Positions 1 to 35,779 of a stretch of DNA of 35,779 bases are shown piece after piece (positions within the stretch are counted from its first letter, which is position 1; each line of letters begins with the position of its first letter). The translations under genes were made by a program, and so were the position numbers. Source of the stretch: Candidatus Saccharibacteria bacterium RIFCSPHIGHO2_12_FULL_41_12 (GTDB lineage Bacteria; Patescibacteriota; Saccharimonadia; Saccharimonadales; 2-12-FULL-41-12); contig MGCQ01000002.1 of the NCBI GenBank assembly GCA_001790445.1, forward strand, positions 1-35,779. Direction: 5' to 3'. The notes beneath the pieces were generated by a model. The model saw nothing but the letters and a program-made list of their open reading frames with translations, did not search any database and was not told the origin of the DNA.

Positions 1-28
1 ATACTTTCTTGTGCTAACAAGAAAGTAT
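1..28. repeat. Hairpin module A (ACTTTCTTGT inverted repeat) flanking structured element copy 1
   Basis: ATACTTTCTTGT-GCTA-ACAAGAAAGTAT followed by GCAAAGAAA; the same module is found inverted at 7161-7188, and variants occur at 15343-15373 and about 35720-35760. Confidence 0.75.
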
Positions 29-40
29 GCAAAGAAATAG

Positions 41-448
41 CAGGCTATTGAAGTAACATTATTGAAATATCTCTTCAATCAACCCAGTTTTTCCGGGACT
101 CCCTTTGGTCGGGCTAAAGCCTGGTCCTCAAAACATGGCGTTGCTTGAATAGATATTTCATCAGTTATTCAAGGGCCTGGAGCTTAAGTGGCTAGATTAT
201 TAATAATATTTTCTACGAAAATATACAGATTTAGAATCAGGCCTTGAGCAGACCTGAGAGATTTCGTCGAGATTACAACTATCAGACGAGGACTGTCTGA
301 CCCTACGTCGCCGAAGGCTATGGAGGGGAGTTCCGAGACCGTGGCTTCTGGCTAAGGTCAGGCTTAGCCTGCCTTTGAGCCAGAAGAGACCATGTCAGGC
401 TGTTGTGATCCTTGACTAGTAGTTTCATAAAGTCTGCTCAATCGCCTG
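41..448 (+). ncRNA. Candidate large structured RNA, copy 1
   Basis: Stem TGAAATATCTCTTCAA (63-78)/TTGAATAGATATTTCA (145-160); outer stem TTGAA(48-52)/TTCAA with TAAC/GTTA; apical motif GACTCCCTTTGGTCGGGCTAAAGCCTGGTCCTCAAAACA (97-135); hairpin ATATTTTC-TAC-GAAAATAT (206-224); closing stem CAGGC..GAGCAGAC (238-253)/GTCTGCTC..GCCTG (432-448). Same architecture as 6807-7148 with compensatory substitutions. Strand inferred by analogy only. Confidence 0.6.
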
Positions 449-460
449 TCGGTTTTTGGG

Positions 461-510
461 TTCCGTTTTGCCGATTCAAAATGGAATAAAAGCAGGCTTG
501 CTTGCAAGCC
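461..510. repeat. Hairpin module B plus GGCTTGCTTGCAAGCC hairpin; possible purA terminator on minus strand
   Basis: TTCCGTTTTG/CAAAATGGAA (461-486) and GGCTTG/CAAGCC (495-510), followed on the minus strand by TGCTTTTATT; inverted equivalent of 6735-6787. Confidence 0.6.
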
Positions 511-524
511 GGGAAAGAGATACT

Positions 525-6639: not shown

Positions 6640-6734
6640 TATCTACATCATACAGGATATTGTTTGAAAATTCGATTCAAATTTATGTAAATTTTTAGCT
6701 TCATTGCGCTAAAGGTTGGGAACAACCTTTCATC

Positions 6735-6787
6735 GGCTTGCAAACAAGCCGTATTTTGTTCCATTTTTGTGTCGACAAAAACGGAAC
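6735..6787. repeat. Hairpin module B (GGCTTG..CAAGCC plus GTTCCATTTTTGT..ACAAAAACGGAAC)
   Basis: Hairpins 6735-6750 and 6758-6787; inverted relative to 461-510. Confidence 0.7.
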
Positions 6788-6806
6788 CCAAAAAACGCTC
6801 GTGCTA

Positions 6807-7148
6807 TTGAACTAACATTATTGAAATATCTCTTCAACCAACCCAGTTTTTCCGGGACTCCCTTTGGTCGGGTCTGGGAGACCTGGTCCTCAAAACATGG
6901 CGTTGTTTGAAGAGATATTTCATCAGTTATTCAAGGGCCTGAAACAAAGCAGTCTAAAGTCATAATTAATAATATTTCCATAGGAAATATACACTCTGCT
7001 TCTGGTCAGGCCTTGAGCAGACCTGAGAGATTTCGTCAAAGATACAACTATAAAGACGAGGACTGTTTGAGTCCCGCCGTGGCGGGATGAGTTCCGCAGG
7101 CAGTTGTATCTTTTGACAAGAAATCCCATCAAGTCTGTTCATAGCCTG
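6807..7148 (+). ncRNA. Candidate large structured RNA, copy 2
   Basis: Perfect 16-bp stem TGAAATATCTCTTCAA (6822-6837)/TTGAAGAGATATTTCA (6907-6922); TTGAA/TTCAA outer stem; apical motif 6856-6897; hairpin ATATTTCC-ATA-GGAAATAT; closing stem CAGGC..GAGCAGAC/GTCTGTTC..GCCTG; long stem GATTTCGTCAAAGATACAACT / AGTTGTATCTTTTGACAAGAAATC. Confidence 0.62.
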
Positions 7149-7160
7149 TTGTTTCTTTGC

Positions 7161-7188
7161 ATACTTTCTTGTCAACACAAGAAAGTAT
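7161..7188. repeat. Hairpin module A
   Basis: ATACTTTCTTGT-CAAC-ACAAGAAAGTAT, 12-bp perfect stem. Confidence 0.75.
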
Positions 7189-7252
7189 GGTGATTGAAAG
7201 CCTGAAAGGCTTTAATCGCAACGCAGCTTTGTGTAATTTCCCCAATTTGTAT

Positions 7253-7258
7253 TACAAT
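7253..7258 (+). promoter_or_regulatory. -10 box for purE, leaderless-type spacing
   Basis: TACAAT, 7 nt before ATG at 7266; TTGTGT 18 bp upstream. Confidence 0.45.
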
Positions 7259-7265
7259 AGATGTA

Positions 7266-7830: not shown

Positions 7831-8550
7831 TTATGGAACAATTTTATAAATTGGGTTAGGTGCCCATGGCCAGATATTAAATTTTTGTTCGTCGTACGAA
7901 GTTTTAGTGCTTAAAGTTCTCCCAAGGTTCTTCTCAATCTTTTTTACTATTTCTTTATTTTCGTCGTTAGTATAGTTATTATTATATGAATGTGAAATTG
8001 CCCCCGTCAGAATGTCGCATAACTGGATTATCGATAAATTCTCTGCTGGAATCTCCTGAACATGTTTAATAGTTACCCCAGTATTAGGAAGCAGTATGTT
8101 TATGTAATTGCTTAAGGAATTTTTTACTTCGCTAACTCTATTCGTATGCTCGCCACGGTGAAGCAGTATAGTCAGACGGCAATTATTGTCACAGAAGTGC
8201 TTAACTCTTCTAGTAAGGTGTACCTTTGAGAAGTTAGGTATAGCATTGCTAAAAGGTGTTCCCATATATGGTGTGGCAAGACTTTTGTAAACATTTTTGT
8301 CAACTATGAGAGCACTGAAACGCACATTATGTTTAAAGAACAAGTCAACAAATTCCAAGTACATATCTAAGATATTTACTTGTCTCTTTGAGGATTTCCA
8401 TTTTAAGGTACCCCAGCAGTTGTACTTAACTCTCAAGTCTAGGCATTCAGCATTGAATTCTCTAAGAGAACCGTTCCCAATACTTACCCAAACAGAGCCA
8501 AAAACAACATTTTGTTCTTTTTGGCTTCCAATATCACACGCCACCAGCAT
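7831..8550 (-). CDS. DUF3800-like protein (RNase H-fold-like)
   Basis: N-terminal acidic motif VACDIGSQ, GTLKWKS, and C-terminal LSIIQLCDILTGAISHSYN resemble DUF3800 motifs. Confidence 0.55.
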   Translation of the reverse strand: MLVACDIGSQKEQNVVFGSVWVSIGNGSLREFNAECLDLRVKYNCWGTLKWKSSKRQVNILDMYLEFVDLFFKHNVRFSALIVDKNVYKSLATPYMGTPFSNAIPNFSKVHLTRRVKHFCDNNCRLTILLHRGEHTNRVSEVKNSLSNYINILLPNTGVTIKHVQEIPAENLSIIQLCDILTGAISHSYNNNYTNDENKEIVKKIEKNLGRTLSTKTSYDEQKFNIWPWAPNPIYKIVP

Positions 8551-15146: not shown

Positions 15147-15211
15147 CATCAGGAGTTGCAGTTTTTACTCAGTGTAACTTTCAGTCCTGCAGGAGGGCTC
15201 ACAAAAAAACT

Positions 15212-15315
15212 GATGAAATATCCACAGGGCAAAGGATTGTTTTGAGGACCAGGCTTTAGCCCGACCATAGGGAGTCACGCAAAAACATCTTTTGCTATGG
15301 GGGTATTTCAATCAA
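15212..15315 (-). ncRNA. Diverged copy 3 of structured RNA (domain 1)
   Basis: Minus strand GACTCCCTATGGTCGGGCTAAAGCCTGGTCCTCAAAACA (15238-15276 region), one mismatch to 97-135; enclosing arms 15214-15237/15287-15310 still pair but with different sequence. Confidence 0.55.
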
Positions 15316-15342
15316 GTTCTTTTTGTAAGCCGAGTTTCTTTG

Positions 15343-15373
15343 CTTACTTTCTTAGTCGGTACAAGAAAGTAAG
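15343..15373. repeat. Hairpin module A variant next to copy 3
   Basis: CTTACTTTCTT / AAGAAAGTAAG, with GCAAAGAAAC adjoining on minus strand. Confidence 0.7.
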
Positions 15374-35618: not shown

Positions 35619-35645
35619 TTCTTTTTCCAAAGAACCAAATTTTTG
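35618..35645 (+). terminator. Rho-independent-like terminator after ytxH-like gene
   Basis: GTTCTTT-TTCC-AAAGAAC followed by CAAATTTTT. Confidence 0.5.
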
Positions 35646-35683
35646 TTCCATTTTTGTGTCAAAAAATTCTTGATTAAGAGTCA

Positions 35684-35779
35684 GCTGCATTGCGCTAAAG
35701 CCTCCAAGGAGGCTTTTATCACCTTACTTTTTCTCTGTGTGCCAAGAAAAAGTAAGCAAAAAGTGCTACCCCAGTGATC
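35684..35779. repeat. Left edge of another structured element, truncated by window end
   Basis: GCTGCATTGCGCTAAAGCCTCC..GGAGGCTTTTATCACC then TTACTTTTT..AAAAAGTAAGCAAAAAGTGCTA; aligns with the reverse complement of 7150-7227. Confidence 0.55.

Follow-up and report, generated by a model that had tools for sequence, protein, structure and literature searches.

A modular palindromic element with triplex-type ends between purC and purE in a small Patescibacteria genome, a candidate non-autonomous mobile element

Closest described systems

MITEs, mobile insertion cassettes and integron cassettes are non-autonomous, occur in empty and gene-carrying versions and have conserved ends around unrelated genes; integrons recognise folded single-stranded DNA. 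Rickettsia palindromic elements (RPEs) are palindromic units that lie in frame in conserved genes as well as between genes. BIMEs and REPINs, linked to RAYT transposases, are intergenic, multi-copy, mosaic and without coding capacity, and REPINs are inverted pairs of palindromes (PMC3116915). The PIT or TM_ECO motifs are hairpins with a mirror-image tail; these G/C-rich triplex motifs are intergenic and present in many copies, sometimes in inverted pairs, do not occur on plasmids or phages, and have been linked to genome instability in E. coli (PMC4666352).

The element described here comes from an 856-kb Patescibacteria genome (9 contigs, 92.6% complete), of which contig C2, 35,779 nucleotides long, was analysed as a whole and is referred to as the window. 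It resembles each of these systems in some of these features, and the differences are as follows. Unlike MITEs and mobile insertion cassettes, it has neither known transposase ends nor a visible target duplication, and in place of the integron array beside an integrase, with a single attC, it has symmetric double ends and scattered copies. It is likened to RPEs by behaviour, not by sequence, as related units lie in frame in recJ and recG, whereas the element in its own genome is mostly intergenic, two-armed and provided with triplex-type ends. In comparison with BIMEs and REPINs, the units are about ten times longer than the 20–40 nt REP and end in triplex-type hairpins, the arm core is shared across phyla, there is no link to Y1 genes, and some relatives bear cargo. 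The PIT and TM_ECO consensus is G/C-rich, whereas the present motifs are A/T-rich and part of the ends of a larger two-armed element. Literature searches by sequence string and by topic returned triplex motifs, REPINs and RPEs only, and no description of this element.

Anatomy of the element

The element is a 530-base copy flanked by the divergent genes purC, at a distance of 58 bp, and purE, at 38 bp. Its parts are:

6698..6751 (+): left end, with end motif GCTTCATTGCG at 6698-6708 and two small outer hairpins at 6711-6730 (AAAGGTTG..CAACCTTT) and 6734-6751 (CGGCTTGC..GCAAGCCG); from sequence and DNA fold
6758..6798 (+): terminal hairpin B with inward tail CCCAAAAAAC; from fold and module map
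6804..6950 (+): arm hairpin X, 147 nt; from module map and fold
6950..6993 (+): short A/T-rich centre CTAAAGTCATAATTAATAATATTTCC..GGAAATATACA, the position of the cargo site in Gallionellaceae relatives; from module map
7013..7155 (+): arm hairpin Z, 143 nt, which contains the cross-phylum core (7058-7099)
7144..7189 (-): terminal hairpin A, its mirror tail pointing inward; 7153-7184 (-) is a perfect triplex motif
7190..7227 (+): right outer hairpin and end CGCAACGCAGC at 7217-7227; from sequence and fold

The ends GCTTCATTGCG and CGCAACGCAGC are those given by the first-pass annotation, and they match at 9 of 11 positions as imperfect terminal inverted repeats of the kind that characterises MITEs; the left motif recurs in other copies (L032 and L034, for example). 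The same annotation placed hairpin B to the left and hairpin A to the right, which the module map bears out with B at about 6758-6798 and A at 7144-7189, and reported no transposase in the window, in agreement with a Pfam scan that found none among its 28 ORFs. The X apex (about 6853-6892) reads GGGACTCC..GTCCTC and is the inverted counterpart of the Z core. As single-stranded DNA, 6698-7227 folds to -118.5 kcal/mol, against -57.5 +/- 5.0 in dinucleotide shuffles (z -12.3), and this structure is not due to chance. Isolated matches to hairpin B are also seen in other genomes of the same order.

Copies and module exchange in the genome

A search of the genome returned 60 matching pieces, corresponding to about 25 copies plus fragments, and several contig ends lie inside copies; assemblies of MAGs may break or misjoin at repeats of this kind. 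The window also holds:

1..511 (+): copy 1, A-X-centre-Z-B, lacking its outer left end because the contig begins inside it; triplex motif at 5-36 (+)
15205..15372 (-): solo half-element, an A-like triplex hairpin with an X-like arm; triplex motif at 15336-15368 (-)
35641..35779 (+): beginning of a further copy, with terminal hairpin C and truncated where the contig ends; its triplex motif is at 35728-35763 (+)

The copies are mosaics in which terminal hairpins A, B and C and long arm hairpins X, Y and Z are arranged around a short centre. The module map contains B-X-Z-A twice (the 6698-7227 copy and L031), A-X-Z-B four times, A-X-Z-A once, C-Y-Z-A five times, C-Y-Z-B once and A-X-Y-C five times, together with three solo halves (two of them outside the window, like that at 15205..15372) and single-arm or cut copies. 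Ends A and B are each paired with both X and Z, and end C with Y. This genome-wide catalogue with classified ends, proposed earlier as a check, supports the claim that end and arm modules are swapped between copies: the exchange of A and B is real, as copy 1 reads A-X-centre-Z-B and copy 2 (6698-7227) reads B-X-centre-Z-A. Hairpin B of copy 1 does lie on the right as described, but the limits given for it (461-510) are slightly narrow, since with its tail it spans about 444-511. The arms are paired as XZ (7), YZ (6) and XY (5), and identical arms (XX, YY or ZZ) are seen in 0 of 18 copies, for which the chance is about (2/3)^18 = 7e-4 by arithmetic that assumes roughly equal arm frequencies. 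Identical inverted arms would form long near-perfect palindromes and were probably lost, which would leave the mixed-arm copies that remain. The genome thereby offers a concrete case of module shuffling at very small genome size in the Patescibacteria.

The 22 copies examined all lie between genes, the neighbours being co-directional for 13, convergent for 6 and divergent for 3; one overlaps a 112-codon ORF that was judged spurious. As copies occur in all gene orientations, they are not simply terminators or promoters. The first-pass annotation had proposed a non-autonomous mobile element or one reshuffled by recombination, and the multi-copy, intergenic and mosaic character, with no internal enzyme, agrees with this; a clean empty site, a target duplication and a mobilising enzyme were not found.

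History of the purC/purE locus

Three relatives of the same family (G003, G004 and G005), all from other genera, have the order purC-purK-purE with little room and no element; the order was read fully in G005 and by spacing and sequence in G003 and G004. In the window (6640-7265) the element occupies the purK position, and purK was not found anywhere in its own genome, which is 92.6% complete. Full synteny across related genomes, named earlier as the observation that would count against mobility, is thus not the case at purC/purE in these relatives. The empty sites and target duplications that were suggested as signs of insertion were not seen either, as the relatives without the element carry purK at this place and no duplication is visible by eye. 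The difference at this locus is also a gene loss and could therefore be a rearrangement.

A recombination hotspot driven by structure, as opposed to a transposable unit, has to be weighed here. In such a process triplex and palindrome motifs would stall replication, and new copies and cargo swaps would arise by template switching and homologous exchange between halves, aided by natural transformation and without a dedicated enzyme. The absence of purK where the element sits, the visibly recombined modules, the association of triplex motifs with genome instability in E. coli (PMC4666352) and the lack of a Y1 transposase or reverse transcriptase common to all carriers are in keeping with it, but it gives a poor account of whole arm-core-arm units in frame in unrelated genes and of conserved end motifs around unrelated cargo, both described below. 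A hotspot is considered rather unlikely, and a mobile element with recombined halves is preferred.

Terminal hairpins with mirror-image tails

The tail of each terminal hairpin is the mirror image of the purine strand of that hairpin. Such mirror pairs of stem and tail are AAAAGAAAG and AAAGAAAAGG, AAGAAAAAG and AAAAAGAAGG, AAGAAAAG and AAAAGAAG, AAAAGAAGG and GAAGAAAAGG (Gallionella), and AAGAAAG and AAAGAAA (type A of the window's own genome). Over the 49 distinct stem/tail types, tails score 6.61 in mirror match to their own stem and 5.78 when permuted, and none of 2000 permutations reaches 6.61. A reading of the tail as a direct repeat was rejected, as the non-reversed match shows no excess over permutation. 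The only perfect triplex motifs in the window are the four at 5-36, 7153-7184, 15336-15368 and 35728-35763, all of which are element ends; at a laxer setting, the scan returns about 3 matches in shuffled sequence.

Judged from sequence, tail and stem together have the geometry of an intrastrand purine-motif triplex, which could form in principle. If this is right, the mirror-tailed ends are evolutionary evidence that such a geometry is kept in bacterial genomes, and the open question of the role of triplex motifs becomes directly testable.

The arm core across phyla

The apex of arm Z, GAGGACTGTYTGA-(small stem)-AGTTCCGCAG, was found as an exact match in at least 118 contig stretches of a 257-Gb species collection (a lower bound), where about 0.4 would be expected by arithmetic. 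The listed matches include Proteobacteria, Nitrospirota, Lachnospiraceae, Bacteroidales, Coriobacteriia, Spirochaetes, Chloroflexi, Myxococcota, Gastranaerophilales and several Patescibacteria groups, and only two viral contigs carry the core. The invariance of the core is partly built into the search pattern, which left the stems free. Taken over 177 distinct copies, the two flanks base-pair (score 11.6; 7.5 when permuted) through stems that differ from copy to copy, and the closing pairs of the core covary (score 0.356; 0.066 when shuffled, no more than 0.108 when slid). With a covariance model, the core is recovered at E<=0.01 from 28 of 380 Patescibacteria genomes, some of the matches being short and partial.

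Covariation in the stems, an apex that does not vary and GA-rich internal loops would also fit structured non-coding RNAs, or RNA processing signals, that form a family multiplied in the genome. Such a family is improbable: with arms in inverted pairs, a single RNA would have one of the two arms from the wrong strand, copies are found in every gene orientation and, in related cores, in frame in coding genes, and there is no Rfam match at the gathering score and nothing credible at E<=5. A search for tRNA and tmRNA likewise returned none.

In genome G366, all 11 core matches lie on the same strand of a 1.24-Mb contig (C3), each with a different, mostly near-perfect closing stem, and a second, related core (GAGGAYSTGTTCGAGATAGACT..GCCCCGCAG) is seen beside some of them.

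In-frame copies inside genes

Related cores in other genomes, as distinct from the 6698-7227 copy, are found within genes. In recJ of G408 the frame is open through two core hairpins, each translated as LPAELATLRQSSATE, and the first of these inserts corresponds to about 32 extra residues between two conserved blocks when compared with RecJ of PDB 8y30, approximately the length of arm, core and arm. Genome G312 has one core in the same RecJ loop and another in an ATPase-like gene, and a recG-like gene of a Kaiserbacteria genome has one in-frame core with a perfect 22-bp stem. These in-frame units suggest that whole units are inserted, beyond what recombination alone would do.

In-frame palindromes were repeatedly seen in recombination genes, namely recJ in two lineages, at the same loop, and recG (L086, L091 and L197); chance, permissive loops or a preference could each lie behind this recurrence.

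Cargo-bearing relatives

Symmetric two-arm elements with the same core are present in Dechloromonas, Azonexus and Marinobacterium; those of Dechloromonas and Azonexus have the complete terminal-hairpin architecture. In Gallionellaceae and related genomes, a half-element query gives 1-29 matches per genome, largely in facing pairs. Among the pairs read, 4 are empty (0.1-0.25 kb inside) and 24 enclose 0.7-1.9 kb of unrelated ORFs. The cargo includes a TIR effector (PADLOC PDC-S35, E 2e-74) and a RelA/SpoT protein (PDC-S33, E 3e-104), as well as a GmrSD-like nuclease, a type-I-restriction-like protein, a DUF4238 protein and a CoiA-like protein. Most of the 20 profiled cargo proteins, an incomplete catalogue, have no profile match and none is a transposase; the cargo is suggestive of a possible enrichment in defence genes. 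The ends of the Gallionella cassettes are conserved, with GTCGGGGGTAGCCCGAC preceding the triplex hairpin. Among the copies that were read in the genome of the window, none was seen to carry cargo; these copies appear to be related to the Gallionella cassettes through shared architecture and core, without alignment of the whole element.

Plasmids and phages are the usual gathering place of mobile elements. The Gallionella half-element has no match in plasmids, phages or E. coli, and the Dechloromonas element none in plasmids. When 60 relatives were searched for an empty site with the joined flanks of one Gallionella cassette, they were too diverged, with the two flanks on different contigs. 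REP-like repeats (GTAGGTTGGGTTAGCG..CGTAACCCAACA; CGTTCGTGCTGAGCTTGTCGAAGCATGAACG) are often seen 10-20 bp outside both ends of Gallionella cassettes and sometimes form an inverted pair.

If the relationship is right, a repeat that goes unnoticed between the genes of many phyla would be a mobile cassette platform with defence-like genes. A broader proposal, possible but tentative, is that of an unrecognised, phylum-spanning class of mobile gene cassettes, in which inverted pairs of modules with triplex-type ends and arm hairpins would capture single genes, some of them defence-like, and move them on bacterial chromosomes without a dedicated transposase, using housekeeping enzymes, the Xer recombinase perhaps among them, together with folded single strands; the copies in the window would be its empty form.

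Candidate mobilising enzymes

A trans-acting transposase or tyrosine/HUH enzyme had been named in the first-pass annotation as something to look for, and the genome does contain two Y1_Tnp genes (IS200-like, RAYT-type) at C7:118685 (L084:1300-2050) and C9:97583 (L085:1270-1960). Each is framed on both sides by its own short palindrome (TGTACAAGGACGTTCCTTGTAC; TGCGTCAGGGTCGTACCCTGACGCA), unlike the element hairpins. Y1 is present in 13 of 18 carrier genomes and was not found in carriers G312, G363, G225 and G366 (completeness 99-100%) or in G434, which weakens a RAYT as the mobiliser. Movement of REPIN-like elements by these Y1 transposases could draw on the presence of both genes, on the inverted palindrome pairs that REPINs likewise form (PMC3116915) and on the REP-like repeats that flank Gallionella cassettes, but in view of the different palindromes and the core carriers in which Y1 was not found it is given little credence. 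The element works like a non-autonomous palindrome of the REPIN, RPE or MITE type, but does not have the cognate Y1 gene that defines a REPIN. With a core found across phyla, ends of triplex type and relatives that bear cargo, it goes beyond an ordinary repeat.

Reverse transcription was rejected as the mobiliser, as no reverse transcriptase was found in carriers G312, G386, G279, G225, G366 and others. A tyrosine recombinase is present in 16 of 16 genomes tested and is single (Xer-like) in 7 of 8 Patescibacteria; as 14 of 14 control genomes have one as well, its presence does not discriminate. This leaves a housekeeping or undescribed factor, and mobilisation in trans of a folded single strand would be the most likely route.

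Preferred reading and proposed mechanism

Taken together, the 6698-7227 element is probably, though by no means certainly, one copy of a palindromic mobile element that is modular and non-autonomous and whose halves have been reshuffled by recombination. This reading is drawn from the dispersal of roughly 25 copies over unrelated intergenic sites, the occurrence of every mixed arm pairing together with the A/B swap and a recurrent end motif, the lineage-specific presence at purC/purE, tails that mirror their own stems, a cross-phylum core with covarying, copy-specific stems, the arm-core-arm additions in frame in recJ and recG, and the empty and cargo-bearing pairs with conserved ends in one clade. 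Against it stand the lack of a clean empty site, target duplication, excision product or enzyme, and the absence of plasmid matches for the Gallionella and Dechloromonas forms and of phage matches for the former.

Each half consists of an end motif with outer hairpin, a mirror-tailed terminal hairpin and a long arm hairpin whose apex carries the conserved core. Two such halves face one another across the centre, which contains one or two genes in the Gallionellaceae relatives but is short and empty in this copy. In the proposed mechanism, the halves would fold when the DNA is single-stranded, as in lagging-strand synthesis, repair or transformation, and the folded ends may be recognised by a trans-acting factor, so that the unit would be copied or pasted into intergenic DNA and rarely, in frame, into permissive gene loops. 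Later homologous exchange and gene conversion between halves would reshuffle ends A and B and arms X, Y and Z.

As to the surroundings of the two window copies, a PaaX_M/Cas2-like protein (1867-2361) is encoded near copy 1, and a protein with a weak DUF3800 match (7831-8550) near copy 2.
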